The notes under the pieces: model-generated
Told to the model about the DNA's origin: nothing
What the model saw: the letters and a program-made list of their open reading frames with translations, nothing else
Databases searched by the model: none
DNA from: Mycolicibacterium porcinum
GTDB taxonomy: Bacteria > Actinomycetota > Actinomycetes > Mycobacteriales > Mycobacteriaceae
Direction: 5' to 3'
Length of the DNA stretch: 64,000 nt
Assembly (NCBI GenBank): GCA_002086835.1
Contig: MVIG01000009.1
Span: 229,799 to 293,798, forward strand
Made by a program: the position numbers and the translations under genes
Part shown: in pieces, positions 148-38,643 of the stretch
How the letters are laid out: every line of letters begins with the position of its first letter
How positions within the stretch are numbered: the stretch's first letter is position 1

Positions 148-163
148 GACCGACGCGTCGGAC
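148..163. promoter_or_regulatory. TetR-type operator copy 1
   Basis: GACCGACGCGTCGGAC, one mismatch from the perfect palindrome. It lies 34 bp before the start of the leftward membrane protein gene. The rest of 115-507 shows no gene, only this site and the next one. Confidence 0.75.
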
Positions 164-308
164 GGAAGCGTTTTGCGTCGAGTGACCGGAGTGGCGAGAG
201 CGTTAGGCGGGGGCGGCCCCCAACTGGGTCGGTGGAACGCGGGCCGCCTCGTATGCCACTCCTTGACCGTCCAAAGGGGGTGTTGTTAGCATCACAATCG
301 TAGAATTC

Positions 309-324
309 GACCGACGCGACGGTC
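309..324. promoter_or_regulatory. TetR-type operator copy 2
   Basis: GACCGACGCGACGGTC, about 185 bp before the first P450 gene at 508. It is embedded in AT-richer sequence, as expected for a promoter. Confidence 0.75.
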
Positions 325-507
325 GAGTTCTGAGGCTGAAGCTAACCGAAATGTAGGTGCAGGCGGTGGCTACATCTCGAAGGCGGGCGCAGATTGGCGG
401 AGTCGAGTCAACCTCGTACCGCTCGCGAGTCGACCGCGCTGAGCCGTGGCGTGTCCCACGGCGCAGGAGCCGCGGAGTATGGAAACGATGAGAAGGATGG
501 ACCGATT

Positions 508-1920
508 ATGACGCTCACTCAGCCGCAAGGGGCGCCGAAGCCGCCGGCAACGGCGGGAATCCCGATCGTCGGCACTGTCTCCCAGCTGATGAGTGATCCG
601 TTGGGCTTCATGAAAGGCATGGATGCGGTCGCGCCGATCGTGCGGGTGCGACTGGGGGCGCGCGATGTGTACTTCGTGAACCACCCCGATCTGATCAAAG
701 AGGTGTTGGTCACCCGCGAGAAGGAGTTCTCCAAGGCCGGGATGGGCAAACAACGCCTGGATCCACTGGCCGGAGATGGACTGTCGCAGATCGAAGGGCC
801 GGAATGGAGTCGTGCCCGCAAGATGATGCGGCCGGGATTCACACAGCGGTCGTTGGCCAAGATGTCGGAGAAGATGGTGTTCGCCATCGCCGACCACCTC
901 GATTCTTGGGAACCCAAGCTTGCCGCCGGCGAGTCGATCAACCTCAGTTCGGAATTGGCCGAACTGACGATGTCGGTCCTCACCTCCACCATCTTCGGTC
1001 ACTCTCTGACGCTAGAAGATCGCAAAACGCTGGACCGTGACTTCGCGGCCGCGAATCGATGGGTCAACTGGCGGCTGTGGACACCAGGTTTTCCGGAGTG
1101 GGCGCCGCTGCCTGGTAAGCGCAAGGGCATTGCGGCAATGGCGCGTATCGACCGCGTCCTGGCGAAGCTGACAGACCATCGTCGCCAACATCCCGAACGC
1201 TACGACGACTTACTTTCGATGCTGGTCAATGCCGAGTCCGAGGACGATGGCTCGGTGTTCGACGCCAAGCAGATCCGCGATCATGCCATGAATCTCCTAT
1301 TCGCCGGCCACGAGACCACTGCGATCACAAGCACCTGGGCCTTGGCGCTGATGCAGCAGCATCCGTACTGGGAAGAGCGCGCCATCCGTGAGGTCGACGA
1401 AGTGTTGCAAGGCCGCACGCCGTCGTTCGAAGACTGGCAACGGCTGCCGGTGATCAAGGCGTGTTGGGAAGAGGCCATGCGAATGTATCCGCCCGCCTTC
1501 ATCAACGGCAGAACCGCTGTCGCCGATTGTGAACTCGGGGGCTATTCGGTTCCGAAGGGCACCATGGTGATGCTCAATGTCGTTGGCACCCACTATCATC
1601 CTGAATTCTGGGATAAGCCGGAGGAATTCAATCCTGACCGATTCCTCGACGATCGCGACAAGTCGCGCCACATGTGTGCCTACTATCCGTTCGGAGTTGG
1701 CTCGCGCATGTGCATCGGCAAGTACATGGGAACTGTTGAAGCGGTGCTGGCGATCTCGATGATCTATCAGCGTTATCGGCTGGTCCTTGACGCAGGTGCG
1801 GACATCGCACCCAAGATCAAGATGAGCATCCAGTTCCAGGACGGCCCGCGGATGCGGATAGAGCCTCGGGCAGCCTCGAGTGCGACGGCATCGGTGCAAG
1901 CCCCCGTTCCCGCGGTTTGA
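508..1920 (+). CDS. Cytochrome P450 (first of three)
   Basis: A 470-residue P450, longer than the usual 400-430 residues of soluble actinobacterial P450s. The I-helix oxygen-binding motif is FAGHETTAITSTW, the K-helix ExxR is in WEEAMRMYPP, and the heme loop is FGVGSRMCIGKYM with the cysteine ligand. I chose the ATG at 508 because the preceding in-frame residues look non-coding and AAGGA lies upstream. An SDR follows after 10 bp and a 3Fe-4S ferredoxin after that, so the three probably form an oxygenation operon: hydroxylation, alcohol oxidation and electron supply. The substrate is unknown. The upstream TetR-type operator ties it to the cluster regulon. Confidence 0.93.
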   Translation: MTLTQPQGAPKPPATAGIPIVGTVSQLMSDPLGFMKGMDAVAPIVRVRLGARDVYFVNHPDLIKEVLVTREKEFSKAGMGKQRLDPLAGDGLSQIEGPEWSRARKMMRPGFTQRSLAKMSEKMVFAIADHLDSWEPKLAAGESINLSSELAELTMSVLTSTIFGHSLTLEDRKTLDRDFAAANRWVNWRLWTPGFPEWAPLPGKRKGIAAMARIDRVLAKLTDHRRQHPERYDDLLSMLVNAESEDDGSVFDAKQIRDHAMNLLFAGHETTAITSTWALALMQQHPYWEERAIREVDEVLQGRTPSFEDWQRLPVIKACWEEAMRMYPPAFINGRTAVADCELGGYSVPKGTMVMLNVVGTHYHPEFWDKPEEFNPDRFLDDRDKSRHMCAYYPFGVGSRMCIGKYMGTVEAVLAISMIYQRYRLVLDAGADIAPKIKMSIQFQDGPRMRIEPRAASSATASVQAPVPAV

Positions 1921-1930
1921 CCAGGAGGAC

Positions 1931-2731
1931 ATGACAGAAATGGGACGGTTCAACGGTAAAGGTGTCATCGTGAGCGGTGGTGCGTCGGGTATCGGTGAAG
2001 CCGCGGTGCGGAAATTCGTCGGGGAGGGCGCGAAAGTCGTCATCGCCGATGTCAACACCTCGCTGGGTGAGCGCTTGAGCGCCGAGCTCGGCGCCCAGGC
2101 GGAGTTCGTGCGACTCGACGTCGCGGATCCGCAGGCGTGGTCCGGTGCGGTGGATGCCGTCGTCGCGCATGCCGGCGGATTGAACGTGCTGGTGAACTCT
2201 GCGGGCATACAAATCGGGGGAGTGATCGACGAGGTGACCGACGAGGATTGGCAGCGGGTGATGGGCGTCAATCTCAACGGCACCTTCTTCGGATGCCGGG
2301 CCGCGTTTCCGGAGATCCGTCGCGCCGGTGGCGCTATCGTCAACATCTCCTCCAGCGGTGTCCTTCAGGGCTATCAGCAGTACCCGGCCTACTCTGCGGC
2401 GAAAGCCGGTGTCATCGCGTTGACGCAATCCATTGCCGCCTATTGTCGCAATGGCGGCTACCCGGTCCGATGCAACGCGATCTTGCCCGGCGGCATCGAG
2501 ACGCCCATGGTGCATGACGCAATCCGTCGAGAATTCGGGCTGGATCCAACGTCAGAGATGGCGGCACCCATGCTCGCGGCGCTCGGCCGGCCATCGCAGG
2601 TCGCCGACACCGTCGCCTATCTGGCCTCCGATGAAGCTTCATTCGTCAATGGACAGTCCTTGCTGGTCGACGGTGCGTCCACTTTCACCGTTCCCGCAGC
2701 ATCGCTGACTCAGTCCGTCTCAGCTGAGTAG
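1931..2731 (+). CDS. SDR family NAD(P)-dependent oxidoreductase
   Basis: A 266-residue classical short-chain dehydrogenase. The nucleotide-binding motif GGASGIG is near residue 17, NSAG lies mid-protein, the catalytic serine is in NISSSG, and the YxxxK motif is in YSAAKAG. The strong AGGAGG at 1923-1928 is very close to the ATG at 1931, and the in-frame ATG at 1940 is an equally possible start. It is co-transcribed with the upstream P450 and the downstream ferredoxin. The likely role is oxidation of a hydroxyl made by the P450, or a 3-hydroxyacyl-CoA step; this is inferred from position. Confidence 0.92.
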   Translation: MTEMGRFNGKGVIVSGGASGIGEAAVRKFVGEGAKVVIADVNTSLGERLSAELGAQAEFVRLDVADPQAWSGAVDAVVAHAGGLNVLVNSAGIQIGGVIDEVTDEDWQRVMGVNLNGTFFGCRAAFPEIRRAGGAIVNISSSGVLQGYQQYPAYSAAKAGVIALTQSIAAYCRNGGYPVRCNAILPGGIETPMVHDAIRREFGLDPTSEMAAPMLAALGRPSQVADTVAYLASDEASFVNGQSLLVDGASTFTVPAASLTQSVSAE

Positions 2732-3115: not shown

Positions 3116-3505
3116 CTAGCGCCACGCTCGATAGAATTCGGGTTCCGGATACTCCCAGTACTCGACGAGCTTGCCGCCGTCAATCCGGTACACCTGGGCG
3201 AGAACGTAACTGAATGTCTCACCATCACGTTCGAGCCGATGGCGCACTATGGCAACACCGAGACGGTCGTTGGCGACGATGTCGATCAGTTCGTCCCGGT
3301 AGGTGCCGCCACTGATCTCCATGAACTTCTGGTACATGCGCAGGCCCTCGTCGGCGCCGCGCCAGTCACCGCTGATCTGGGTCTCCCCTGGCTCGTGCCA
3401 CACGATTTCAGGATCCACCAATTCCTTGTAGACGGTGTCGTCGCCGGCGATAAAGGAATCGTAGAGTCGGCGTAAAGCCACTTCGTTGGCGTGAGGCGAT
3501 GTCAA
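3116..3505 (-). CDS. SnoaL-like (NTF2 fold) small protein
   Basis: About 129 residues from a TTG at 3505, chosen because AAGGA lies 8 nt upstream; another TTG at 3550 would add 15 residues. Features such as ALRRLYDSFIAGD, IVWHEPG and LVEYWEY are typical of the SnoaL/NTF2-like cone fold, which includes ketosteroid-isomerase-like enzymes, dehydratases and hydrolases. It is last in a leftward operon with the barrel protein (3560-4105) and the APH-type kinase (4137-5180), and a strong terminator follows. An isomerase or dehydratase role on a CoA or cyclic intermediate is plausible but not shown. Confidence 0.75.
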   Translation of the reverse strand: MTSPHANEVALRRLYDSFIAGDDTVYKELVDPEIVWHEPGETQISGDWRGADEGLRMYQKFMEISGGTYRDELIDIVANDRLGVAIVRHRLERDGETFSYVLAQVYRIDGGKLVEYWEYPEPEFYRAWR

Positions 3506-3559
3506 TTCAGAAATCCTTCCCTCGGGATTTGGATGCAGGCATTGATACAAGTGGTGGTG

Positions 3560-4105
3560 CTACCGCGATGTGAGAGGTGAGTCCAGCAGATAGGTTTCCT
3601 CGTTGTGGGACACCGCGCCGCCGGCGTCGATGCGCCGGAAGTTCATGGTTTGAAACATCGTTCCTGTTGCCCCGGCGAACTCGCCTGCACCACCGATGAT
3701 GACGCCGCGGCCCTGCGGGCCCGGGCCGCTGGTCGCGACGAATGGGGCTTCACCCTCCCACGGTTCGCCAGTTTCATGCACAGTGGAAAACAGTTCCACC
3801 AGTTTGGGATTCGCGTAGTCCTTCACCTGGTAGGAAGCGAGGACGCCGCGCGCTGGCAGTGTGATTGTGAAAGCGACATGCAACTTGTCGCCTTCGGTCC
3901 ATTCCAGTTCGCTGCCGATGCCGATCTCGCGGCCCTCGGCATCGCGGATCTTGGTCAGCACGACGACCTGATTGCTCAACGGGGTGTCAGCGAGGTTCTC
4001 GATTCCCGCGGGGAAAATCGGTTGAGCCACAGAGCCGTCGTGGGTGATGGCAATGACGTCGTGGGGAGTGCTCCAGTAGAAACGCTCGACGATGGGTTCG
4101 CTCAT
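3560..4105 (-). CDS. Uncharacterised protein, possible allene-oxide-cyclase-like barrel
   Basis: A 181-residue protein with no signal peptide. The C-terminal half is rich in alternating beta-strand patterns and glycines (GRGVIIGGAGEFAGATG), which resembles the barrel of allene oxide cyclase and dirigent-like proteins. I recognise the style, not a firm family. It lies between an APH-type kinase gene and a SnoaL-like gene in one operon, so it probably acts on a pathway intermediate. A binding or cyclising role is a guess. Confidence 0.65.
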   Translation of the reverse strand: MSEPIVERFYWSTPHDVIAITHDGSVAQPIFPAGIENLADTPLSNQVVVLTKIRDAEGREIGIGSELEWTEGDKLHVAFTITLPARGVLASYQVKDYANPKLVELFSTVHETGEPWEGEAPFVATSGPGPQGRGVIIGGAGEFAGATGTMFQTMNFRRIDAGGAVSHNEETYLLDSPLTSR

Positions 4106-4136
4106 GCGCGGTGGTTCCTTTCAGTCGGGAGAGATA

Positions 4137-5180
4137 TCAGTTAGTCAGCAGATCAAGTGACCGATGGTCGGCGACGGCAGCCCCGCACCGCTGGCCGGCG
4201 GCCACACAAACTTCTTCGGGTTGGAACATCGGCGTGGTAAGACACCACAGCAGGCCGAAGTATGCGGCTCGCCGATATTCGAGCCACGCGTCGTCAAAAT
4301 CAATGACAGGGCCGCCCGCGGCCGCCAGATACTGCAGATAACGAGCGAGCAGTGCGCGTTCGTGGTTGCGTCGGTCTTCGATCGCCAGTGCCGTGCTGAG
4401 GAAGTAGGCCACGTCGTGGGACCAACGGCCGGCCATTGCGCCTTGCCAGTCCAGGAAGCCCGACGTGCCATCAGCGAGGAAATAGAGATTGGCTACGTGA
4501 GAATCGCCGTGCAGCAGGCATCGGGGTGATTCCAGATCCAGCTCCACGAGTCGGTCGAAGGCGTCGCGCGCCTTCACTCTCTCGATCAGGTCACCGGTGA
4601 GGTAGTCGAACCGGGCCGTTGGCGCACAGGTGTCCCAGTTCTCTTTTGAGAAAAGAAACTCTGAGACATTCGCAGAATTGTGCACGCCCAACCATGGGTT
4701 GGCGTCAAGTATCGGAGCGCTCCAGGACGACGCGTGCAGCGAGGCGAATGAATGCAGAACTCGTTCAGCCTGCTCGATTTTCATGGTTTGCAGCGGTGAT
4801 CCGAAGGTTGCGCCGGCCGCCGCGAGATCCTCGAGCAGTATCGTGCCGGTGGCGTCCGCGCCGGCGTCGGCGAAAAAGCAGCGGGGGTGGACGCCACCGA
4901 CGTGCGGCAGCACCTCCGCGTAGACGCGGGCTTCATGACGGTAGTAAAAGGCGAGCATGGCGCTGTGAGCCTCATAGCCGCCTTTGAGCAGCATTTTGGC
5001 TGGCAAGGTGGTGGAATCGGCGTAGTCGAGGTCGAGGAACGCCTTGGTGGTAGTGCCGTGAATGATCTTCGACTGACGCACCTTGGCGACTTCGACGCCG
5101 AGAACCTCGCTCAGCCATGCGGCATCGATGTCATCGACTGATGGGATTGCACTCGTACTGGATTGAGCAGAGGGATTCAT
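4137..5180 (-). CDS. APH/ecdysteroid-kinase-like phosphotransferase
   Basis: A 347-residue member of the aminoglycoside phosphotransferase superfamily, EcKinase-like subgroup. The catalytic loop is LLHGDSHVANLY and the metal-binding motif is GFLDWQGAM. An upstream in-frame ATG at 5192 is possible, but 5180 follows a GGAACGG. Relatives phosphorylate hydroxyls on small molecules or acyl-CoAs. In a catabolic cluster a hydroxylated intermediate is likelier than an antibiotic as substrate. It is first gene of a three-gene operon driven from the operator at 5266-5281. Confidence 0.85.
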   Translation of the reverse strand: MNPSAQSSTSAIPSVDDIDAAWLSEVLGVEVAKVRQSKIIHGTTTKAFLDLDYADSTTLPAKMLLKGGYEAHSAMLAFYYRHEARVYAEVLPHVGGVHPRCFFADAGADATGTILLEDLAAAGATFGSPLQTMKIEQAERVLHSFASLHASSWSAPILDANPWLGVHNSANVSEFLFSKENWDTCAPTARFDYLTGDLIERVKARDAFDRLVELDLESPRCLLHGDSHVANLYFLADGTSGFLDWQGAMAGRWSHDVAYFLSTALAIEDRRNHERALLARYLQYLAAAGGPVIDFDDAWLEYRRAAYFGLLWCLTTPMFQPEEVCVAAGQRCGAAVADHRSLDLLTN

Positions 5181-5265
5181 GAGCCGTTCCATTCGGGTGT
5201 GATCTGGCTACAAGTGCTGCGTTGCGGTGTGGTGGCTCACATCGCAGCTGCGGACCACAATATAC

Positions 5266-5281
5266 GACCGTCCAGACGGTC
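5266..5281. promoter_or_regulatory. TetR-type operator copy 3
   Basis: GACCGTCCAGACGGTC, 85 bp upstream of the leftward kinase operon. The outer half-sites are conserved and the centre differs. Confidence 0.75.
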
Positions 5282-5899: not shown

Positions 5900-5915
5900 G
5901 ACCGACGAGGCGGTC
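5900..5915. promoter_or_regulatory. TetR-type operator copy 4
   Basis: GACCGACGAGGCGGTC in the divergent region between the SnoaL-like gene (start 5797) and the P450 (start 6005). A GTTAAT directly after the site could be a -10 element for the rightward promoter. Confidence 0.75.
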
Positions 5916-7774: not shown

Positions 7775-8509
7775 TCACGGTCGGCGCGGATCGGAGTTGC
7801 GCCGCGCGATGACGATGTTGCCGACTGCAGCGTTGGCAGACAGGTGCGTCAGTGCTACGGCAAGCTCGGCCACGTCGGCGGTGGTGATCATTCCGGTGCG
7901 CGGTTCGTCGAGCCAGGCGGTCATGTCGGTGTCGACGAAACCGGGCGAGAGTGCGGTGGCGGTGACGCCGTGTTCGCCCTCCTCCAGTGTCACGGTGTCG
8001 CACAGAGAGATCAACGCTGACTTGCTGGCGCCGTAGGCGGCCAACCCCGCTTCAGGATGGACACCGGCGATCGAAGCCAGGGCGACGACCTTCGCTCCCC
8101 GTTCGGGAGCTGTCGAGGCTGACTTACGAAGCAACGGAAGCAGATCCTGCAGCAGCATGTAGGCCGAACGGACGTTGAGGTTGAACGTCAAGTCGTAGTT
8201 CTTCATGGTGCTTTCGGTGATGGGCGCGTAGTGGCCCAGTCCGGCGTTGAGGATCAGCACGTCCAAGCGATCGAAGGTATCGAGATGTTCAGTGGCTACC
8301 CGCCGCACGCCGGCTTCGTCGGAGAGATCGGCGGCGATTTCGCGCACCTGGACGCCGAATTCGGCACGGATCTGATCGGCGAACGACGACAGCCCGGGAG
8401 CGCGGCGCGCGACAAGGGCCAGATCGTATCCTTCTCCGGCGAGCCGTCGGGCGATTTCGGCGCCGATGCCGCGAGATGCTCCCGTGATGAGTGCGCAGCG
8501 TTCGCTCAT
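7775..8509 (-). CDS. SDR family oxidoreductase
   Basis: A 244-residue classical SDR: TGASRGIG near the N-terminus, LNAGLG, and the YxxxK motif in YGASKSA. The ATG at 8509 lies one base from the stop of the thiolase-family gene (8511), so translation is probably coupled. It belongs to the leftward operon controlled by the operator at 11279. Its role is probably a hydroxy/keto interconversion in the pathway. Confidence 0.92.
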   Translation of the reverse strand: MSERCALITGASRGIGAEIARRLAGEGYDLALVARRAPGLSSFADQIRAEFGVQVREIAADLSDEAGVRRVATEHLDTFDRLDVLILNAGLGHYAPITESTMKNYDLTFNLNVRSAYMLLQDLLPLLRKSASTAPERGAKVVALASIAGVHPEAGLAAYGASKSALISLCDTVTLEEGEHGVTATALSPGFVDTDMTAWLDEPRTGMITTADVAELAVALTHLSANAAVGNIVIARRNSDPRRP

Positions 8510-8510
8510 G

Positions 8511-11278: not shown

Positions 11279-11294
11279 GACCGTCGCGTCGGTC
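11279..11294. promoter_or_regulatory. TetR-type operator copy 5
   Basis: GACCGTCGCGTCGGTC, 15 bp upstream of the leftward reductase start. A second copy lies 70 bp away, so each divergent promoter has its own site. Confidence 0.8.
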
Positions 11295-11348: not shown

Positions 11349-11364
11349 GACCGACACGTCGGTC
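11349..11364. promoter_or_regulatory. TetR-type operator copy 6, with -10 element
   Basis: GACCGACACGTCGGTC before the rightward operon. It is followed at once by GTTAAAT, a likely -10, which would place the operator over the -35/spacer region. Confidence 0.8.
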
Positions 11365-11393
11365 GTTAAATGGATTGGGTGAATGGAGACGAC

Positions 11394-11717: not shown

Positions 11718-11745
11718 GTGAGTGCCACCCCGGGGAGGGGGATTC

Positions 11746-13172: not shown

Positions 13173-13198
13173 TCGGCCCAGCGAGAGAAGGCACGAGA

Positions 13199-13624: not shown

Positions 13625-13661
13625 CCATACGGCGGAGAATTCGCCCACCACGGGAGGACAT

Positions 13662-14816: not shown

Positions 14817-14825
14817 GAGGAACAC

Positions 14826-15950: not shown

Positions 15951-15953
15951 GCG

Positions 15954-27558: not shown

Positions 27559-27724
27559 AACCCCAGCCCACAGAGTCACCGACCAGTCCTCCCATCTCGC
27601 GGCGATGCTCCGCGACCGGGCTGGCGGCCACCTGTGCAGCGGTACGGCGGCACCGACCACGAGGCCTACCCACCTGCGCCGTGCGGTAATTGACACCGCT
27701 GAATCCGCGCCAGTAGCGTCAAAA

Positions 27725-27740
27725 GACCGTCACGTCGGTC
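27725..27740. promoter_or_regulatory. TetR-type operator copy 10
   Basis: GACCGTCACGTCGGTC, 54 bp before the third P450 gene, in a 236-bp intergenic region. Confidence 0.8.
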
Positions 27741-27794
27741 GGCATTTGCGGTTCTAGACATTCCCATCGCCGCCCATCTAGGAGGACCTCACCC

Positions 27795-29033: not shown

Positions 29034-29049
29034 GGGTAGGAGCTTACCG

Positions 29050-29604
29050 ATGACCGCGTTGAACGAATCAGAACTCACCGCGAACGATCTTCTGGCTCGC
29101 CTTGAGCGGCTGGAGGCCGAGCGCGATGTGCGACATGCGCTCAATGACTACTTCTATCTCCTCGATGCCGGTCGGGTCGAAGACTTGCTCGATGTCTACA
29201 GCAGAGAGGTGGACTGGTCGGCGAGCAACATCCCGTTTGGATCAGGTCGGCGACTTGCGCTGACCGGACGTGCTCAGGTCAGGCCGGTCGTTGAAAGCCT
29301 TGGGTATGGAGGCTTTCGGCACCACGGTGTCAATGCGGACATCTACGTCGATGATGCGGCCACGTCCGCGTGGACGACCAGTTACATGCTGGTGGTTTCG
29401 CGCTCGACCGAAGTGCCCGGTACCACGCTGCTGTTGGGCGGTTTGTACGAAGGAACCTGGACTCGCGACTCGGATCGCTGGCGTATCGGCGCCTGGCATA
29501 TCAGCCATCAGTGGATGGTAGATGGTGTCGGCAGTGAAAAGTTCTTTGACGGACTACGTGAGGGTACGCGTTGGGACGGGCTTAGACGAGAAGAGGATTC
29601 ATGA
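29050..29604 (+). CDS. SnoaL-like (NTF2 fold) protein
   Basis: 184 residues of the same broad family as 5315-5797: RHALNDYFYLLDAG, LLDVYSREVDWSA, DRWRIGAWHISHQWM. Its stop overlaps the start of the aldehyde dehydrogenase gene by 4 bp. No catalytic residues can be assigned with confidence. Dehydratase, isomerase or binding roles are all known in the fold. Confidence 0.87.
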   Translation: MTALNESELTANDLLARLERLEAERDVRHALNDYFYLLDAGRVEDLLDVYSREVDWSASNIPFGSGRRLALTGRAQVRPVVESLGYGGFRHHGVNADIYVDDAATSAWTTSYMLVVSRSTEVPGTTLLLGGLYEGTWTRDSDRWRIGAWHISHQWMVDGVGSEKFFDGLREGTRWDGLRREEDS

Positions 29605-31055
29605 CCATCGCGCCGACCACACCACCTGTCGGACTGCTTGTCGGCGAAGACTGGCGCAGTACCGCCAGCGGCGGAACTCGCGAGCACGTCAACGCAGCGA
29701 CCGGCACCGTACAAGCCGAAATAACGTTGGCCGGGCCGGATGAAGTTGACGAGGCGGTACGCGCCGCCCGCGGCGCATTTGCGGACTGGCGGCGTTGGCA
29801 TCCCACCGAACGGCGTCGGGTGTTGCAGCGCCTGGTGGAGTCGATGACGGCGCACCGTAAAGAATTCATCGCGTTATCCGCACAGGAGTGCGGAATCCCC
29901 GTCCAGGTCGGTCAGGCCATCGTGCAGATGGGAATCGACTGGGCCGACAGCGCCGCCACGTGGGCCGACAAAGTAGCGGGCGAGGTGATCCCTTCGGCCG
30001 CGAATGTCTTTGATTACACGTTGGCCGAACCGTACGGGGTGGTCGCGGTCATCCTCACGTGGAACGGACCGGCCGCGTCTATGGGCATATCTGTGATGCC
30101 GGCATTGGCAGCGGGCTGTTGTGTCGTGGTCAAGCCGTCTGAGTTGGCCCCGTTCAGTGCCTTGCTGTTCGCTCGATTGGCGCGGGAAGCAGGGGTACCC
30201 GCTGGTGTCATCAACGTGGTCACCGGTGATGCACAGGCGGGGGCCGCGCTGGTCGCGCACCCGGGAGTGGACAAGGTCAGTTTCACCGGAGGAATAGCGA
30301 CCGCGCAGGCTATTTCGGCAGCCTGCTCACGTCGACTCACACCTTTGCTTTTGGAACTCGGTGGCAAGTCGGCCAACATCGTCTTCGACGACGCCGACCG
30401 CAAGAAAGCGCTCAAGTCCGCACTGGGAATCATCGTGCTCTCCGGTCAAGGTTGCATCGTGCCGTCACGGCTGCTCGTTCAGGACTCGATTTACGACGAA
30501 TTCGTCGAGCAGGTTACCGGCGCACTGAGCCAAATCCGGGTGGGCGATCCTTTCGATCCCAAATCGGTCATGGGACCGGTCATTTCAGACGCCGCATGTG
30601 ACCGGATCCTCGGATTCGTGGACCGGGCACGTAACAGCCAAGCCGGCCAGCTACTGCTGGGCGGCGACAGGTTGGGCGGCGAGCTGAGCGATGGTTATTA
30701 CCTCCCGCCGACGGTTTTCGGTGATGTCGACAATGCCAGCGAGTTGGCACAAGAAGAGATTTTTGGTCCGGTGTTGGCGATCATGCGGTTCACCGACGAG
30801 GAACACGCTGTTGCCATGGCCAACGACACGCAGTTCGGTCTGGCCGGGTTCGTGCACACGACCGACATGTCGCGCGCAGTCCGTGTCTCGGCGGCGCTCG
30901 ACGTCGGCAACGTCGGCGTCAACGGCGGAGGGGCGATGGGCGGCCCTGAAGCTCCTTTTGGTGGGGTAAAGCAAAGCGGATACGGCAGGGAAGGCGGCAA
31001 AGGTGCGCTGCTGGAGTTTCTTCGGATCAAGAACGTGATGGTCGATCTGGACTGA
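29601..31055 (+). CDS. Aldehyde dehydrogenase
   Basis: 484 residues. LTWNGPAASMGISVMPAL is at the cofactor entrance, the glutamate is in LELGGKSANIV, and the nucleophilic cysteine is in LSGQGCIVPSR. It is translationally coupled to the SnoaL-like gene and ends the operon that begins with the third P450. Its role is oxidation of an aldehyde in the pathway, likely a different intermediate from that of 26116-27558. Confidence 0.95.
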   Translation: MTIAPTTPPVGLLVGEDWRSTASGGTREHVNAATGTVQAEITLAGPDEVDEAVRAARGAFADWRRWHPTERRRVLQRLVESMTAHRKEFIALSAQECGIPVQVGQAIVQMGIDWADSAATWADKVAGEVIPSAANVFDYTLAEPYGVVAVILTWNGPAASMGISVMPALAAGCCVVVKPSELAPFSALLFARLAREAGVPAGVINVVTGDAQAGAALVAHPGVDKVSFTGGIATAQAISAACSRRLTPLLLELGGKSANIVFDDADRKKALKSALGIIVLSGQGCIVPSRLLVQDSIYDEFVEQVTGALSQIRVGDPFDPKSVMGPVISDAACDRILGFVDRARNSQAGQLLLGGDRLGGELSDGYYLPPTVFGDVDNASELAQEEIFGPVLAIMRFTDEEHAVAMANDTQFGLAGFVHTTDMSRAVRVSAALDVGNVGVNGGGAMGGPEAPFGGVKQSGYGREGGKGALLEFLRIKNVMVDLD

Positions 31056-31147: not shown

Positions 31148-31163
31148 GACCGACGCGACGGTC
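31148..31163. promoter_or_regulatory. TetR-type operator copy 11, with -10 element
   Basis: GACCGACGCGACGGTC followed by GTGTAAATTC, a likely -10, 48 bp before the Ltp-like gene. Confidence 0.8.
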
Positions 31164-31211: not shown

Positions 31212-32363
31212 ATGAGTGCACAGAAAACGCTGGCGATCGTTGGGATCGGTGCGACACGCCCCGCGTGGTCGCATGAGAGCTCGGTGAGCAAGTTGGTGGT
31301 TGAGGCTGCGCTGGCAGCGTGTGATGACGCCGGCATATCGCCGGGAAGTCTCGACGGTGTGCTGAGCGAGGCCTACAGCACCCCGCACATCATGCCCGGG
31401 CTGCACGCGGCGCTCAATCTAAAACCTGATGTGTTCACCGCAAACATCGGACTTGTCGGATCCGGCGCGGTGGCTACGATCGCGCTTGCCCATGCTGCGG
31501 CAAATACCGGCCAAGGTTCGACGTTTCTATGCGTCTATGGTCTCAATCTCAGCGATGTCGGCGGACCGGGAACCCACCATTCCTCCGACCCGTACAAGGC
31601 CAACATGGAGATGCCGTTCGGCTTCTTCCCTCAGCCGGTGTACATGGCAGCGATGGCGAAACGCTACTGCGCGGAATACGGCGTCGACGAGGAGTTGATC
31701 TCGTCGGTGCCGCTGTCCACGAGGGCATGGGCGGCGCTGAATCCGTCGGCGTTGTGTCATGAGCCTCTCACCGCAGAGGAATACGCACGCTCGCCCATGA
31801 TTGCTGATCCCCTGCGCAAGTTGGACTGCTGTCTGATCAGTGACGGTGCGTGCGCATTCGTCGTCACAACCAAGGACCGGGCTGTGAACATGGCACACCG
31901 TCCGGTCGATGTGCTGTCGTTATCCCGGGCCGTGGAACCGATTCCGTCGCAGGAATACCTCGGCGTGCGCAGCGATCACATGAACCTGCCCTCGCGGTTG
32001 TCGGGCCCCAATGCGCTCAAACGTGCGGGCTTGACCGTGAATGACGTCGACTTGGCCTACCTCTACGACTGCTTCAGTATCATCCCGGTTCTGCAGCTGG
32101 AGGACATCGGATTCTGTGGTGCCGGAAAAGGGCTGGAATTCTTCGCTTCTGGAGCAACGGCACCGGGGGGGTCGCTACCGGTGAATACCCATGGTGGCTT
32201 GTTGTCGCACTCCTACGTGCCTGGCATCAACATGGTGATCGAAGCGGTCACCCAGTTGCGCGGCGAAGCAGAAGCTGCACGCCAACAATCGGATGTGGAG
32301 ACGGCTCTCGTCGCGGCGTGGGCGGATACCGAACACACCACAGTGCTGCTAGGTAGGGGCTGA
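31212..32363 (+). CDS. Thiolase-superfamily (Ltp2-like) protein, paired with DUF35
   Basis: 383 residues. NIGLVGSGAVATIALAHAA replaces the cysteine-containing thiolase motif, and LAYLYDCFSIIPVLQLED with GGSLPVNTHGGLLSHSY matches the Ltp2 type. In the cholesterol pathway Ltp2 with a DUF35 partner is a retro-aldolase that cuts the side chain after hydration. The DUF35 gene starts in the stop codon of this one (1-bp overlap), which strongly suggests a complex. Confidence 0.92.
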   Translation: MSAQKTLAIVGIGATRPAWSHESSVSKLVVEAALAACDDAGISPGSLDGVLSEAYSTPHIMPGLHAALNLKPDVFTANIGLVGSGAVATIALAHAAANTGQGSTFLCVYGLNLSDVGGPGTHHSSDPYKANMEMPFGFFPQPVYMAAMAKRYCAEYGVDEELISSVPLSTRAWAALNPSALCHEPLTAEEYARSPMIADPLRKLDCCLISDGACAFVVTTKDRAVNMAHRPVDVLSLSRAVEPIPSQEYLGVRSDHMNLPSRLSGPNALKRAGLTVNDVDLAYLYDCFSIIPVLQLEDIGFCGAGKGLEFFASGATAPGGSLPVNTHGGLLSHSYVPGINMVIEAVTQLRGEAEAARQQSDVETALVAAWADTEHTTVLLGRG

Positions 32364-32800
32364 TGCGCGCGATCTCCGACTTGCTGCCCGACGTCGACTG
32401 GAAGCCCATGCGGGAATTCTGGACGGCGTGCGCACACCACGAACTGCGGTTTCCCCAATGCGTACGGTGCGGTCGGTTCCAGTGGTATCCGCGCGATTTC
32501 TGCGGCGGCTGCATGGGTGAGGAATTCTGTTGGGCGGCAATCGAACCCATCGGTTATGTGTATAGCTTCACGGTGGTCCGCCGAGCGTTCCTGCCCGGCT
32601 CCCGAGATCGGGTTCCGTTCACGGTGTTGCAGGTGCAGTTCGATGAGGCACCAGGAGTGACGCTGCTGACCAATCTCGCTGAGGAGAACCAGGCGTCGCG
32701 GGTCCGTGTGGGAGCGAAGGTGCGAGTGGCGTTCACTGAAGTCGGCGATCCAGGCCGTGATGTGGCCGTCACGATGCCATACGTGCGGATTATCGAATAG
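32363..32800 (+). CDS. DUF35 / OB-fold zinc-ribbon protein (Ltp partner)
   Basis: 145 residues. The zinc ribbon has CVRCGRFQWYPRDF and CGGC, then an OB fold with GYVYSFTVVRRAF. It overlaps the Ltp2-like gene by one base (TGATG). By analogy with ChsH2 and Ltp2 it stabilises the partner and completes the retro-aldolase. It is the second such pair in the window (see 13199-14816). Confidence 0.92.
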   Translation: MRAISDLLPDVDWKPMREFWTACAHHELRFPQCVRCGRFQWYPRDFCGGCMGEEFCWAAIEPIGYVYSFTVVRRAFLPGSRDRVPFTVLQVQFDEAPGVTLLTNLAEENQASRVRVGAKVRVAFTEVGDPGRDVAVTMPYVRIIE

Positions 32801-32870: not shown

Positions 32871-33698
32871 CTACTCGGCAGCAGCGGGCTCCGCCCAATA
32901 CTCATTGGTCATGGCCGGCAGCGGCATTTTGCAGGTGGCGCCGCCGTCCACAGGCATCGTGATACCGGTGATGACCTTCGCTTCCTGTGATGCCAAGAAC
33001 AAGGCCGCATTAGCGATGTCGGCTGGCTCACCCAATCCGGTCAACTGTAAAGACAGCAGTGCATCTCGATACGTCGGATCGGCCAGCAAGGCGTCGGTTC
33101 GACCAGGGATCGGTACAGCTCCCGGGACAATGCAGTTGGCACGGATCTTGTCAGCGGCACCTTCGACTGCGGCGGATCGGGTGAGTGCGAGCATTGCCGA
33201 TTTGGCTGCGCTGTAGGCGGCTGTACCGTTGTTCCCCAGAAGGGCGCCGATCGAGGAGATGTTGACCACCGCGCCGCCACCGCTTTTCGCCATCTCGGTC
33301 ATCGCGTATTTGCAAGCCCAGAACGGGCCGTAGAGTGTCGCGACGATCGTGGTGTTCCACCCCTCGGTAGACACGCCTACGATCGTGCCGTCGATCGCGC
33401 CGGGGCCGACGGTCCACTCAGTAGGTGCGGCATTGTTGACGAGTATTGTCAGCTTTCCGTATGTGCTAACGGCAGTACTCATCGCCGCTCGAACGTCGTC
33501 TTCGCGGGACTGATCCATACACACGAACACAGCCTCGCCGCCGTGCCGGCGAATCGACGTCTCTACCTCACGCCCGAGCGTCGCTGTGCGACCGGTGAGC
33601 ACCACCTTGGCACCCTCTGTAGCGAATCGCTCGGCAATCGCTTTTTCCATGCCTTTGGTCGAACCTGTTACCACGGCAACTTCGCCGGCTAGCCTCAT
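32871..33698 (-). CDS. SDR family oxidoreductase with altered cofactor motif
   Basis: 275 residues from an ATG preceded by GGAAGG. The N-terminal motif reads TGSTKGMEKAI, where the third glycine of GxxxGxG is replaced by glutamate. The rest is standard: NNAAPT, NISSIGA and the YxxxK motif in YSAAKSA. The substitution may weaken cofactor binding or reflect a sequence variant. It has its own operator upstream (33797). Confidence 0.9.
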   Translation of the reverse strand: MRLAGEVAVVTGSTKGMEKAIAERFATEGAKVVLTGRTATLGREVETSIRRHGGEAVFVCMDQSREDDVRAAMSTAVSTYGKLTILVNNAAPTEWTVGPGAIDGTIVGVSTEGWNTTIVATLYGPFWACKYAMTEMAKSGGGAVVNISSIGALLGNNGTAAYSAAKSAMLALTRSAAVEGAADKIRANCIVPGAVPIPGRTDALLADPTYRDALLSLQLTGLGEPADIANAALFLASQEAKVITGITMPVDGGATCKMPLPAMTNEYWAEPAAAE

Positions 33699-33796
33699 CT
33701 GATTGCCTTCCATCGACGCGACCGGATCGGCCACTCTCATGGCATGTGGTGGTCATCGCATGCCGCTGCCGGGGAGTGGGCCAAGAAAATTAATGC

Positions 33797-33812
33797 GACC
33801 GCCTAGTCGGTC
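33797..33812. promoter_or_regulatory. TetR-type operator copy 12
   Basis: GACCGCCTAGTCGGTC inside an AT-rich palindromic context, with TTAAT on the left and ATTAA on the right. It is 99 bp before the leftward SDR gene. Confidence 0.75.
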
Positions 33813-33879: not shown

Positions 33880-35445
33880 TCAGGCCGAGCCGGGGTAGTT
33901 GCCGCCGCCGAATCGGTCGTCCAACGCTTGGTGGTCCGTGGCGCCCGAGGCAGTCTTTGGCAGTGCGTCGATGAAGTGCACGTGACGAGGTGCCTTGTAG
34001 CGGGCCAGCTTGTCTTGCGTGTGAGCAATCAATGTGTCTGCATCGACAACGCTGCCCCGACGTAGCACGACGACTGCGGTGACGATCTGACCCCAGGTCT
34101 TGTCGGCCACGCCGACCAAGGCCGCTGATGCCACGGCGGGATGCGCTTCGAGGCAGGATTCGACTTCGGCCGGATAGACGTTCTCGCCGCCGGATTTGAT
34201 CATCCGGCGATTCGGCCCGAGAAAGGTGATGACGCCGTCCTCGTCTCGCCGACCCAAATCGGTGGTGTTCCACCATCTTCCGACTCTGCGTTCTGCGTTG
34301 GCCTGCGGGCGATTCCAATATCCCAAAGTGACTGTTGGTCCTGCGGCGAGTATTTCACCGGTCTCGCCGACGGATACATCGCGACCGCTGTGGTCGACGA
34401 TACGCACCCTCGCAACCGGAGACGGTCTGCCTTGGATCGGGCCACCGAGTCGCGACCCGGGGAGCGGAAGAAGGACAGGGCCACCGGTTTCGGTCTGGCC
34501 GTAGCCTGCAACCATCGTGCCGGGCTTGGTCATGTCACGCCAGCCTCGCACCCGTACTGCCGATCGAAATCTGGTCAAATCGAAACGGCGTTCCGCGTTG
34601 AACTCCGCGATCTGTATCGCGGTCTGCGGCATGACCGCTCCGGTGGTGGCATCGTTGTCGACGATGGCGTGGCAGATTTCCTCGGCGCCCGGCCGGGGAA
34701 CGAACACGTTGGTGCATCCACAGACAAGAGCAGACAGTAGCGACACCCAGCCGAGTACGTGAAACAGCGGGGTAGCTACGAGGTTGATGTCGTCGGCTGT
34801 CAATTCGAGCACCGAAATATGGGTGAGCCCTTGCAGATACATGCCCTCTTCGGTGAGCAACGCCGCCCCCGGACGGCCGGAGAATGCCGCGGTGTATAAC
34901 GCCAGGGCCGCCGAAGCCGGGGTTGGCGTTGCTTCCTGAGGCGCGGCGTCGCCACGGGCAAGCGCCGCGCGTACCTCGACTTCGTAGCCATCGTCGGCGT
35001 CGACGGCGAGCCATGCGGTCGTCGACGACGACATGTGCTGGTCGCGTAGTGCGGTCAGACGGTCGTCCCCCGGCACTTTCTGCCATACGACGAGATCGGG
35101 ATCCCAATCTGACAAAGTGAATTCGAGCTCTTCAGGTGACTGGCGCCAGTTCGCGGGGCACAAGGTGGCGCCCAATCGGCAACAGGCGATGAGCAATTCG
35201 ACGACATGGTGACTGTTGGCGCCGAGCCAGAGCACCCGTCCGTGAGCGCCCACGCCGCGCGCGGCGACCAAGGCGGCCACTGCATCGATCCGATCGACGA
35301 ACTGGGCGTAGGTCCACCGTTCGTCACCAGTTACGACCGCGAGTTTGTGGGGTTCACCGTCCCGATGCTGTAGCAACCGGTCGTAGAGCCCAATATGTGA
35401 GGTTTGCACGGATTCCACCACGGGGGAGAAGGAAAAGGTGGCCAC
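33880..35445 (-). CDS. AMP-binding acyl-CoA ligase homologue with degenerate active site
   Basis: 521 residues from a GTG at 35445 with GGAGG 8-9 nt upstream. The overall ANL fold is clear: GYGQTETGGPV, the aspartate in TTDLGRRDEDGV, and RMIKSGGENVYPAEVE. Two hallmarks are changed. The P-loop-like motif reads YTAAFSGRPGAALL, with no lysine, instead of YTSGTTGxPKG. The C-terminal motif reads LPKTASGATDHQ, where the catalytic lysine after SG is an alanine. It may be inactive as a ligase, or act only as a binding or regulatory homologue. It diverges from the TetR gene. Confidence 0.88.
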   Translation of the reverse strand: MATFSFSPVVESVQTSHIGLYDRLLQHRDGEPHKLAVVTGDERWTYAQFVDRIDAVAALVAARGVGAHGRVLWLGANSHHVVELLIACCRLGATLCPANWRQSPEELEFTLSDWDPDLVVWQKVPGDDRLTALRDQHMSSSTTAWLAVDADDGYEVEVRAALARGDAAPQEATPTPASAALALYTAAFSGRPGAALLTEEGMYLQGLTHISVLELTADDINLVATPLFHVLGWVSLLSALVCGCTNVFVPRPGAEEICHAIVDNDATTGAVMPQTAIQIAEFNAERRFDLTRFRSAVRVRGWRDMTKPGTMVAGYGQTETGGPVLLPLPGSRLGGPIQGRPSPVARVRIVDHSGRDVSVGETGEILAAGPTVTLGYWNRPQANAERRVGRWWNTTDLGRRDEDGVITFLGPNRRMIKSGGENVYPAEVESCLEAHPAVASAALVGVADKTWGQIVTAVVVLRRGSVVDADTLIAHTQDKLARYKAPRHVHFIDALPKTASGATDHQALDDRFGGGNYPGSA

Positions 35446-35499
35446 CGAGGGCCCCTCCAGCGACACGACAGACGGTAGGCTTTGCCGCGATCAAAAGTC

Positions 35500-35515
35500 A
35501 ACCGACAAGACGGTC
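35500..35515. promoter_or_regulatory. TetR-type operator copy 13, at the regulator promoter
   Basis: AACCGACAAGACGGTC, followed by TATTAT, a likely -10 for the TetR gene. One base of the outer half-site and the centre differ from consensus. It lies between the divergent ligase homologue and the TetR gene, so autoregulation is likely. Confidence 0.72.
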
Positions 35516-35586: not shown

Positions 35587-36270
35587 ATGGCGCGGAAGCC
35601 GGGTGTGACTGCTGCCGGTGTGCAGCGTCGTGCGCAGATACTCCAGAAGGCCGAGGAACTGATCGCACGCGGCGGGTTCCACGAAATGACGATGGATTCG
35701 ATCGCCGAGGCGCTGGATGTGTCCAAGTCTGGTCTCTACCACTACTTCAGGCAGAAGGACGACCTTCTGTTCGCGATTCGCACGGAAACGCTCGCAGGCT
35801 TAATCGCCAAGCAGCGAGAACGCATGCAGAGCGGGCGCCCCTACGTTGACCTGGTACAAGAGATGGTCCAGGAGGGACTGCGCCTGGTGAGTGATTCGCC
35901 GGCCAAGTACCGGGCGATCTTCGAGTTGAAGATGAAGTCTTCTACCGAGCGGGAAGCCCAGATCCGTGAGCTCGAGCGCGAGTACTTCCACATGATGGTT
36001 GCCACGGTGCAGGGGGCGATCGACGAGGGCAGTCTGCGGCCGGTCGATCCGCGACTGGTTACGCAAGCGATCCTGAGCATGGCAAACCACGCCCAGTACT
36101 GGTTCCAGCCCTCCGGCCGTTTGTCGCATCGCGCAGTGGCCGACGCGTTCTGGGACATGCTCTTTACTGGAATCTCCGTCGACGGGCATCGAGGTTCTGT
36201 GGACAGCGCCAAGATACCCCGGGCCGCAAAGGTGGAGTTTTCCCTCGCGAGCGAACCGGCTGCGCCTTAA
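35587..36270 (+). CDS. TetR/AcrR family regulator, probable master repressor of the cluster
   Basis: 227 residues. The N-terminal helix-turn-helix runs through FHEMTMDSIAEALDVSKSG to LYHYFRQKDDLL, followed by an all-helical ligand domain. It is the only regulator gene in the 43-kb catabolic region. The palindromic 16-bp site found before its own gene and before nearly every operon is the size and symmetry expected for a TetR dimer. It probably represses in the absence of a pathway metabolite, perhaps an acyl-CoA as for KstR proteins. The link to the site is inferred. Confidence 0.93.
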   Translation: MARKPGVTAAGVQRRAQILQKAEELIARGGFHEMTMDSIAEALDVSKSGLYHYFRQKDDLLFAIRTETLAGLIAKQRERMQSGRPYVDLVQEMVQEGLRLVSDSPAKYRAIFELKMKSSTEREAQIRELEREYFHMMVATVQGAIDEGSLRPVDPRLVTQAILSMANHAQYWFQPSGRLSHRAVADAFWDMLFTGISVDGHRGSVDSAKIPRAAKVEFSLASEPAAP

Positions 36271-36333: not shown

Positions 36334-36349
36334 GACCGTCGCGTCGGTC
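36334..36349. promoter_or_regulatory. TetR-type operator copy 14
   Basis: GACCGTCGCGTCGGTC, 25 bp before the molybdopterin oxidoreductase start and 63 bp after the TetR stop, so that gene probably has its own promoter. Confidence 0.8.
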
Positions 36350-36373
36350 GTATCGCCAACGTCGGAGGCGTCC

Positions 36374-38596
36374 ATGGAAGTCGAAAAACCCACCTTCTGT
36401 CGCATCTGTGAGCCGATGTGCGGGCTCATCGCCACAGTGCGTGATGGACACCTGACTGGTGTCCGAGGTGACCGCGACAACCCGTACTCACAAGGCTTCG
36501 CCTGCAGTAAGAGTTCGGCTATGGTCGAGATCACTCACGATCCCGACCGACTGCTGACGCCGATGCGACGACGCGGGGCGCCTGGGTCCTTCGAGCCGGT
36601 GACCTGGGATGAGGCGCTAGGGGACATCAGCGCTCGACTGCAGCACATCGTGGCCGAACATGGGCCGCACGCTTACGCCTCCTTCTTTGGCAATCCTCCG
36701 GTCTTTCACCACGGCAGCCTCTTGGCCCTGCAGGGATTTCAAGCCGCAATCGGGTCGCCGTGGAAATATGGCGTCAACGGTGAGGACGGCGCCTCCCACA
36801 TGGTCGCCAACGCCCTCTTGTACGGCTCGACGGCGATCGGCACAGTACCCGATCTGTGGCGCACACATTTCGCCTTGATCATCGGTGCAAATCCGTTTGT
36901 CTCACGGGGATCGACTGTCAGCGAGCCACAGCTTCGACAAGCCCTCAGAGGCATCGTCGAGCGTGGCGGACGAGTCGTGGTCGTCGATCCCCGCCGCACC
37001 GAAACCGCTCGCAACTTTGAACACCTCGCGATCCGTCCGGGGACTGACGCTTGGTTACTGGCCGCAATGCTGAACACGATGATCGCCGAGGGCCTCGTGG
37101 ATCGGGCGGCGATCACGGAACACACCGCAGGATTCGAGGTGCTCGCCAGCCACATTGAAGGCTTCAGCGCAGACCTGGCCGCCGAGCACTGTGGCATCGC
37201 CGCCAATGTGATTCGCGACCTGGCCCGAGACTTCGCCGAGGCTCCATCAGGAGTCGTCTACGGTCGCACTGGCACGTGCACCCAGCTGTTCGGCACACTG
37301 AACAATTTTCTGCAGCAGACTATCAACGTGGTCACTGGCAACCTCGAACGTGAGGGGGGCGCCAACTTCGGCTGGGGCCCTATCGATTTCGCGAAGTTCG
37401 CGAGCTCAGCGGGACTATCTTCCTTCGGTACGAACAGAAGCCGCACCACCGGTCTACCCGATGTGGCTGGAATGCTGCCTTCTCAAGCGCTCGTGCCTGA
37501 CATCAAGGTTCCGGGGCCAGGTCAAATTCGTGCATTGCTTACCTTCGGCGCCAACCCCGTACTAAGCAGTGGACGCGGTGGCACCGAACTCGAAGGTGCG
37601 CTCGAGACCCTCGATCTGCACTTTTCCTGCGATCTCTATGTCAACGAGACCAATCGATTCGCCCACTACATCCTGCCGGTGCCGACCTTCTACGAACGCG
37701 ACGACGCCCCGTTTGCATTGATGGGCAATATGTTACGGCCCAGCCTGTTCGCCACCGAAGCTGTGCAAGTCCGGATAGGGGACACCCGCACAGAATTCGA
37801 GATTCTGAACGAGATTGCGCGCCGAATGGGCCGAGGCGGCGCGTACGCGGCCGCTCCGCTGCGCTGGCTGGCCAGAGTAGGTATCAACGTCTCGCCACGG
37901 ACCATGGTCGATGCGCTCATCCGGACAAGTCCGGTCGGTGACTGGTTCGGCCTCCGCCGTACCGGACTGTCGTGGAAAAAGCTGCTGACCAAACACCCGC
38001 ACGGCACCGTCATCAAAGGCTGCCTCCCCGTTGGAAGGGTCGCAGCGCACATCCGACACGACGACCAAAAAATCCATCTGGCAACTACCGAAGTACTCGA
38101 CGAACTACATCGCCTACACCACGTAGAAGACCGGTCTGACCTTCCGATGCGCGCTATAGGCATGCGGGAGTTGCGGTCTCAAAACACTTGGATGCACAAC
38201 GCCGAGCGGCTGATGCCCTCCGACCGCCGCCACGTCGGACATATTCACCCCGACGACGCGTCGAGAATCGGGATCGGCGAAGGCGATTTGGCCTGCATAG
38301 TCTCCGACGGCGGTGAGATCTCCATACCGATACACCTCAGCGAGGACCTGCAACCGGGAACGGTAGCCATTCCACATGGCTGGGGGCACAACGGCGGTTG
38401 GCAACGCGCCAACGCCGCCGGCGGGGTCAACTCCAATCAGCTGACCGCCAAGGACCCGAACCGCACTGAACCGCTGAGCGGGATGTCCGTGCTCAACGGA
38501 ATTCCCGTGCGTGTGGAACGTGTTCGTGAGTCGATGCAGCTTCGCCGGGATGTGGTTGATGGGCCGGGTCCACAAGTCGACACACGTGGTGATTGA
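36374..38596 (+). CDS. Molybdopterin-dependent oxidoreductase (DMSO reductase family)
   Basis: 740 residues from an ATG preceded by CGGAGG. The N-terminal 4Fe-4S site is CRICEPMCG with a further cysteine in GFACSKS. Then come the molybdopterin domains (GANPFVSRGSTVSEP, GRTGTCTQLFGTLNNF) and the C-terminal molydopterin-dinucleotide-binding domain (HPDDASRIGIGEGD). There is no twin-arginine signal, so it is cytoplasmic. The family includes formate dehydrogenases, hydratases and hydroxylases using water. In this regulon it may hydroxylate, hydrate or dehydrogenate an intermediate; the substrate is unknown. Confidence 0.92.
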   Translation: MEVEKPTFCRICEPMCGLIATVRDGHLTGVRGDRDNPYSQGFACSKSSAMVEITHDPDRLLTPMRRRGAPGSFEPVTWDEALGDISARLQHIVAEHGPHAYASFFGNPPVFHHGSLLALQGFQAAIGSPWKYGVNGEDGASHMVANALLYGSTAIGTVPDLWRTHFALIIGANPFVSRGSTVSEPQLRQALRGIVERGGRVVVVDPRRTETARNFEHLAIRPGTDAWLLAAMLNTMIAEGLVDRAAITEHTAGFEVLASHIEGFSADLAAEHCGIAANVIRDLARDFAEAPSGVVYGRTGTCTQLFGTLNNFLQQTINVVTGNLEREGGANFGWGPIDFAKFASSAGLSSFGTNRSRTTGLPDVAGMLPSQALVPDIKVPGPGQIRALLTFGANPVLSSGRGGTELEGALETLDLHFSCDLYVNETNRFAHYILPVPTFYERDDAPFALMGNMLRPSLFATEAVQVRIGDTRTEFEILNEIARRMGRGGAYAAAPLRWLARVGINVSPRTMVDALIRTSPVGDWFGLRRTGLSWKKLLTKHPHGTVIKGCLPVGRVAAHIRHDDQKIHLATTEVLDELHRLHHVEDRSDLPMRAIGMRELRSQNTWMHNAERLMPSDRRHVGHIHPDDASRIGIGEGDLACIVSDGGEISIPIHLSEDLQPGTVAIPHGWGHNGGWQRANAAGGVNSNQLTAKDPNRTEPLSGMSVLNGIPVRVERVRESMQLRRDVVDGPGPQVDTRGD

Positions 38597-38627
38597 CCAC
38601 CTATAGCACCGCTGGTAATTTCAATAC

Positions 38628-38643
38628 GACCGACGCGTCGGTC
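38628..38643. promoter_or_regulatory. TetR-type operator copy 15 (perfect palindrome)
   Basis: GACCGACGCGTCGGTC followed by GATAAATGATA, a likely -10, 39 bp before the FadD19-like ligase operon. Confidence 0.85.

Follow-up and report, generated by a model that had tools for sequence, protein, structure and literature searches.

We analyzed a 64,000-nucleotide stretch of the genome of Mycolicibacterium porcinum, an environmental mycobacterium (GenBank assembly GCA_002086835.1, contig MVIG01000009.1, positions 229,799 to 293,798 of the forward strand), hereafter called the window and numbered from its first letter. It carries 15 copies of a 16-bp palindrome, distributed over a catabolic gene cluster that includes a gene for a TetR-family regulator at 35587-36270. 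We consider it very probable that the palindrome is the operator of this TetR protein, which would repress essentially all of the roughly 54-kb cluster as well as its own gene and would be released by a metabolite of the pathway. A preliminary description, made from the letters of the window, had proposed one TetR regulon over one catabolic cluster. That proposal is supported by the near confinement of the full motif to the cluster, by its clustering around the TetR gene in each of the three genomes, of 297 in the genus, that have it, and by the conservation of the sites, which exceeds that of their surroundings.

The window was scanned with the pattern GACCGNCNNGNCGGTC, allowing up to two mismatches, and 100 shuffles served as background. 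All 15 palindromes listed earlier were found at their positions, 12 of them as exact matches and three (148, 21546, and 35500) with one mismatch; a fourth one-mismatch match, at 54121, lies outside that list. Matches with at most two mismatches numbered 29, compared with 11.4 ± 3.2 expected, and no shuffle attained that number. We then built a 24-bp matrix from both strands of the 15 sites and applied it to 104 kb, i.e., the window and 40 kb to its left. With leave-one-out scoring the sites scored 20.9 to 33.8, and the top score at any other place was 8.8. The shuffles and the matrix scores rule out chance or base composition as the source of the palindromes. The matrix also revealed a conserved A a few bases beyond the palindrome, with a partner T on the other side. 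The half-sites (n = 30) read ACCGAC (18), ACCGTC (10), or ACCGCC (2), and the central two bases are mostly GC.

The preliminary description had placed these 15 sites in a 43-kb cluster. The sites are real and the cluster is catabolic, but both continue to the left of position 148. A 16th site, GACCGACGCGTCGGAC, was found 10.6 kb left of the window, at C92:219241 (window position about -10557), at the promoter of an mce operon. The operon codes for one permease of the YrbE/MlaE type (one MlaE match) and for six proteins of the Mce/MlaD type (six MlaD matches). The corresponding site in Mycolicibacterium kyogaense has an identical core and similar flanks. With this import operon the cluster extends from about C92:218.6k to window position 42911, a span of roughly 54 kb. 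A ClpX-like gene (L016:7205-8551) stands at its left border and adjoins a TetR-like-looking gene.

For the positional analyses we used our own gene list, in which the starts of the SnoaL_4, TetR, and molybdopterin oxidoreductase genes were trimmed (for the latter, 36354 was used; the likely ATG is at 36374). On this list all 15 sites are intergenic, in a stretch whose intergenic share is 10.6%, and each has a gene start on at least one side, in keeping with the earlier claims that the sites are intergenic and precede transcription unit starts. If the longest open reading frames (ORFs) were taken, sites 5900, 35500, and 36334 would overlap those three genes; several sites lie inside ORFs that we judged spurious (e.g., 20715-21536, 21449-22156, and 24678-25058). 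Next, the sides of each site were labeled by hand as start-facing, inner, or end-facing. On 8 of the 17 start-facing sides, a hexamer resembling a -10 element (TANNNT) begins no more than 8 bp from the palindrome, compared with 299 of 4,910 intergenic positions (6.1%) at which one begins, which agrees with the proposal that several sites adjoin such elements. The hexamer was also present on three of six inner sides of paired sites, on one of six gene-end-facing sides, and on the unlabeled left side of site 148. Many sites thus occupy positions at which a bound protein would stand in the way of RNA polymerase.

This location argues against the TetR protein being an activator at some or all sites, a possibility to which we assign a low probability. 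FasR, a mycobacterial TetR activator, does match the cluster protein, but weakly (54.6 bits, NCBIfam cut-off 330), whereas the proximity of the sites to -10-like elements, above background, is that of a repressor. Furthermore, the TetR gene has a site at its own promoter (35500), as had been noted earlier, and KstR2, a near fold match, is titled a repressor.

We determined the distribution of the motif in the 6.96-Mb genome. The exact form, GACCGWCNNGWCGGTC, occurs 11 times (reversed control, 3), with 10 copies within the window cluster and the 11th inside a gene for a short-chain dehydrogenase/reductase (SDR). That the motif might be common across the genome, the possibility named in the preliminary description as speaking against a regulon, was rejected for the exact form on this basis.

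A close relative of the TetR protein (E ≤ 1e-40) was found in three of the 297 genus genomes, M. porcinum included, and all three carry sites around the TetR gene. The same search in a family-wide draw of 301 genomes returned only the protein itself. Two of the TetR-bearing genomes, M. porcinum (G000) and M. kyogaense NCTC 11659 (G019), have the highest exact motif counts of the genus, 11 and 9. The cluster is largely syntenic in M. kyogaense, where 31 of 37 ORFs queried (394-42911) match at 54 to 92% identity; ORFs 3116, 4137, 16923, and 32871 have no close match there, and the identity is 42 to 43% for two short ORFs. Twelve sites scoring at least 19.2 lie inside 37 kb there, with the mce operon alongside. 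Positional counterparts exist for 12 of the 15 window sites, and their cores are 93% identical; those without are 33797, whose SDR has no close homologue there, 27725, and 148. An ungapped comparison of the flanks gave 46% identity and was redone with gaps because the ungapped version ignores insertions and deletions. The gapped flanks of paired sites are 75% identical over aligned bases; shuffled flanks reach 69%, and the mean over the alignable DNA of the cluster is 72%.

Being numerous, palindromic, and intergenic, the sequences might be repeats of another kind, such as terminators or mobile repeats between genes. We give this explanation almost no weight: each site faces a gene start on our gene list, exact copies occur almost exclusively in a single cluster, and most sites recur at matching positions in M. 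kyogaense with cores better conserved than the surrounding DNA. The orientation toward gene starts and the conservation between species rule out terminators and mobile repeats.

In genome G292, the TetR protein is 77% identical to that of M. porcinum, the mce operon proteins are 59 to 85% identical, and several accessory genes are 37 to 77% identical. An aldehyde dehydrogenase, an enoyl-coenzyme A (CoA) hydratase, and the kinase/acyl-CoA dehydrogenase pair described below match at 36 to 56%, and a second YrbE match lies beside the first. Four sites scoring 22.4 to 25.7 occur inside 34 kb with the TetR gene, the mce operon, and the kinase/dehydrogenase pair. Of the remaining cluster genes, the majority are missing from the 80 kb examined or have only distant counterparts there. 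The comparison suggests a conserved core, composed of TetR, importer, and kinase/dehydrogenase pair, with exchangeable enzymes.

Sites of the same kind were also found in G121 and G051, in a different gene region. Each of the two genomes has five sites, spread over 52 and 55 kb, respectively, among catabolic genes and a TetR gene of their own (28 to 30% identical), with an exact site after the 3′ end of that TetR gene and a weaker one before it. This type of operator is therefore associated with a broader group of TetR proteins, and finding the motif by itself is no proof that this particular TetR protein is present. The regions concerned (G121:C7 and G051:C325) also contain variant palindromes centered on CCGACCGGTCGG.

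Another regulator encoded elsewhere might read the operator, the cluster TetR being a mere target. The genome holds 22 matches to the cluster TetR at E ≤ 1e-5, itself included, and a TetR-like-looking ORF (C92:216089-216730; no Pfam family at E ≤ 0.001) is situated some 2.5 kb to the left of the site at the mce operon. We nevertheless consider this scenario improbable, if somewhat less so than activation. The other relatives in the genome are 22 to 40% identical to the cluster TetR, and in G121 and G051 it is again a TetR gene that lies among the sites. Of 98 genomes, two have a relative of the neighboring ORF (E ≤ 1e-40), namely M. porcinum itself and G061; G061 has no exact motif, M. kyogaense has the sites and lacks the neighbor, and the ORF is unmatched in the G292 stretch examined. 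This distribution and the lack of a match in G292 rule out the neighboring gene as the reader of the sites.

Several observations weigh against a regulon of the cluster TetR as proposed here. Regarding the motif, GACCGWCNNGWCGGTC with at most one mismatch is fairly common, with 67 copies genome-wide versus 32 for the control. The inner 14 bp occur 28 times, 12 of them in the cluster (control, 8). As looser and inner forms are not rare genome-wide, the outer palindrome letters carry information and position matters. G121 and G051, without a close TetR relative, hold seven and six exact copies, which means that the link between the motif and this TetR is not exclusive. Five copies each are present in G055, G104, G163, G228, and G292 (the remaining 288 genomes have 0 to 4), such that G292 has the same count as four genomes without this TetR; in those four the copies are scattered, the closest pair being 12.8 kb apart, in G104. 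Regarding individual sites, the one upstream of the mce operon has a matrix score of 8.8, because its flanks differ from those of other sites, and its G292 equivalent, located between the permease gene and a divergent neighbor as in M. porcinum, scores 14.6. No strong site was seen directly upstream of the TetR gene in G292. Site 27725 is lost in M. kyogaense even though the cytochrome P450 gene is kept. The canonical TANNNT is missing on 9 of 17 start-facing sides, and in the plus-strand run 11370-16910 gaps of 187 bp (before 11904) and 420 bp (before 13593) contain no site and could house promoters; the genes beyond them are presumed to be read from site 11349. Lastly, the predicted TetR model has a mean predicted local distance difference test (pLDDT) score of 69, with five sequences, and owing to this medium confidence it was used for fold ranking only.

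The cluster TetR has an N-terminal TetR helix-turn-helix and the all-helical TetR fold. PfmR headed the ranking, ahead of the fatty-acid regulator PvrA, then AibR and KstR2, with matches no more than one Z unit apart counted as ties; some of the matched structures are titled as holding CoA compounds. AibR, from Myxococcus, responds to isovaleryl-CoA, and its likeness to the cluster TetR is one of fold rank. With 30 bits against a cut-off of 280 for model NF033703, the protein is not KstR by that model. The KstR and KstR2 operators are of the AAC..GTT or CAAG..CTTG type and differ from the GACCG..CGGTC sites found here. The gene content may also differ from that of the KstR/KstR2 cholesterol regulons: no KstD, HsaC-type, or HsaD model of canonical 9,10-seco steroid degradation is among the NCBIfam matches listed for the cluster proteins, a list not stemming from a dedicated search.

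PfmR (TTHB023 of Thermus thermophilus, PDB 3vpr), the top match within that tie, is 24% identical to the cluster TetR. In the available part of the report on it (PMC7022988), its operators have a similar half-site and the same spacing of two central bases; the half-site is ACCGAC with a central CG, compared with ACCGAC in 18 of 30 and mostly GC here. PfmR is from another phylum, and the Thermus sites described there concern fatty-acid genes. The operators of two other Thermus TetR proteins, TTHA0973 and FadR, do not resemble our sites as given in the accessible portions of their reports (PMC6651687 and PMC5597230). The preliminary description had not recognized the operator as that of KstR, KstR2, or another named mycobacterial regulator. 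Our comparison agrees for KstR and KstR2, but the operator is not entirely unfamiliar, as PfmR from Thermus has sites with a similar half-site and spacing. The operators compared were those of KstR, KstR2, PfmR, TTHA0973, and FadR; a survey of mycobacterial TetR regulators (PMC4482099) presents 11 new motifs as logos. Titles and abstract openings of the publications listed contained no description of this operator or cluster, which is no proof of absence from print. The system is very probably a local TetR regulon with a PfmR-like operator, and it probably responds to an acyl-CoA. The type of regulator is already known; what stands out is the density of operators, together with the inclusion of the importer and of the kinase/dehydrogenase pair described below.

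Family matches for the cluster proteins (Table 1) include three P450s, a KshA-like Rieske oxygenase, ferredoxin reductases, and CoA ligases, together with acyl-CoA dehydrogenases, enoyl-CoA hydratases, and thiolase/lipid-transfer proteins with a ChsH2-type OB-fold partner. CaiB-type CoA-transferase, aldehyde dehydrogenases, and SDRs complete the set. Searches with the P450s did not fix a substrate class.

Two genes match the two halves of ACAD11. The kinase (24931-26088) matches the ACAD11 kinase domain (3.1e-40) and has HGDYRLGN from residue 231, containing the HGD catalytic motif. The dehydrogenase (17834-19279), whose second PDB match is ACAD11, contains LVDGATEVHK, in which Asp 423 (ORF numbering), assigned visually on the conserved motif, stands where other dehydrogenases have the catalytic Glu. 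An Asp at the catalytic position is described for ACAD10/11 and LvaC in the part of PMC12440821 available. The likeness to LvaA/LvaC and ACAD10/ACAD11 thus consists in matches to both ACAD11 halves and an Asp at the expected position; the difference is that here the two genes belong to separate operator-led units of a larger cluster. In G292 their homologues are adjacent. By sequence, the pair is a putative 4-hydroxyacyl-CoA kinase/dehydrogenase. Its presence in the cluster and the Mce importer beside it suggest, with roughly even chances, that the substrate is an imported terpenoid- or steroid-like lipid degraded via a 4-hydroxyacyl-CoA intermediate.

Table 1. Palindromic sites and genes of the cluster in window coordinates, with site counterparts in M. 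kyogaense (G019)
Feature	Position	Strand	Setting	Remarks
Operator site GACCGACGCGTCGGAC	148..163		faces minus-strand gene leaving window at left	1 mismatch; no counterpart
Operator site	309..324		upstream of P450/SDR genes 394-2731	G019:59481
Operator site	5266..5281		upstream of minus genes 3116-5192	G019:54329
Operator site	5900..5915		between divergent SnoaL_4 gene (-) and P450 6005-7306 (+)	G019:53709
Operator site	11279..11294		serves minus genes 7775-11263	G019:48361
Operator site	11349..11364		serves plus genes from 11370	G019:48292
Operator site	21381..21396		minus genes 16923-21341 (KshA-like Rieske, CaiB, acyl-CoA dehydrogenase, SDR)	G019:39134
Operator site	21546..21561		plus genes 21602-23208 (two enoyl-CoA hydratases)	1 mismatch; G019:39033
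Operator site	24895..24910		between divergent acyl-CoA ligase (-) and kinase/aldehyde dehydrogenase (+)	G019:35366
Operator site	27725..27740		upstream of P450/SnoaL/aldehyde dehydrogenase 27795-31055	no counterpart, P450 kept
Operator site	31148..31163		upstream of thiolase-like/OB-fold pair 31212-32800	G019:29162
Operator site	33797..33812		upstream of SDR 32871-33740 (-)	SDR homologue in M. kyogaense region best 35%
Operator site	35500..35515		between divergent acyl-CoA ligase (-) and tetR (+)	1 mismatch; identical 24-mer G019:25904
Operator site	36334..36349		upstream of molybdopterin oxidoreductase	G019:25077
Operator site	38628..38643		upstream of ligase/SDR/ferredoxin-reductase genes 38683-42911	G019:22804
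P450, SDR	394..2731	+
SnoaL-like protein, protein without family, EcKL/APH-like kinase	3116..5192	-
P450	6005..7306	+
SDR	7775..8509	-
Thiolase-like acetyltransferase, ferredoxin reductase	8511..11263	-
ABM monooxygenase, acyl-CoA dehydrogenases, thiolase/lipid-transfer protein, LLM oxidoreductase	11370..16910	+
SDR, ACAD11/LvaC-kind acyl-CoA dehydrogenase (17834-19279), CaiB-like CoA-transferase, KshA-like Rieske oxygenase	16923..21341	-
Enoyl-CoA hydratases	21602..23208	+
Acyl-CoA ligase	23219..24865	-
APH-fold kinase, related to ACAD11 kinase domain	24931..26088	+
Aldehyde dehydrogenase, P450, SnoaL-like, aldehyde dehydrogenase	26116..31055	+
Thiolase/lipid-transfer protein and ChsH2-type OB-fold partner	31212..32800	+
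SDR	32871..33740	-
Acyl-CoA ligase	33880..35466	-
TetR-family regulator, proposed repressor	35587..36270	+		likely start 35587; longest ORF from 35482
Molybdopterin oxidoreductase	36374..38596	+		start inferred
Acyl-CoA ligase, SDR, ferredoxin-reductase fusion	38683..42911	+		cluster right end; M. kyogaense similarity stops here

The search of the M. kyogaense stretch returned no match for the EcKL/APH-like kinase gene at 4137-5192. Immediately to the right of the cluster, Tn7-like transposition genes occupy 43394-52774 and code for a TnsA-like endonuclease, a DDE transposase with a Mu-type C terminus, TniB, and two TniQ proteins; they were likewise unmatched in that stretch. Further right (57400-62193), genes resembling a cyclic oligonucleotide-based antiphage signaling system (CBASS) code for a SMODS nucleotidyltransferase, a ThiF-domain protein, and a SAVED-domain protein, and are possibly cargo of the Tn7-like element.

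From the sites, their near confinement and conservation, their link to the TetR gene, and the gene content, all established by sequence analysis, we infer binding, repression, a ligand, and a substrate as follows. Each copy of the palindrome would be bound by a TetR dimer and would adjoin the -10 region of one promoter or of two. The bound protein would repress the mce importer, the P450s, the KshA-like Rieske oxygenase, the CoA ligases, enzymes of the beta-oxidation and aldol-cleavage types, and the putative 4-hydroxyacyl-CoA kinase/dehydrogenase pair, and through site 35500 it would repress its own gene. The substrate is probably a lipid resembling terpenoids or steroids. When it is present, a metabolite of the pathway, which is probably an acyl-CoA thioester, would bind TetR and make it leave all sites at once.

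More tentatively, and with the odds somewhat against it, the system could be a portable module, in which TetR and its operator, a dedicated Mce importer, and the split ACAD10/11-type pair form a conserved core that recruits differing oxidative enzymes. One palindrome would suffice to enlist an enzyme, and an undescribed polycyclic lipid would be degraded via a phosphorylated 4-hydroxyacyl-CoA.

The analysis links almost 50 predicted genes of an uncharacterized cluster to a single regulator with a single operator, so that the substrate could come to light in one inducer screen. For an Mce importer it points to a probable cargo pathway besides the known cholesterol one, and it shows a split ACAD10/11-type pair as part of an extensive lipid pathway.

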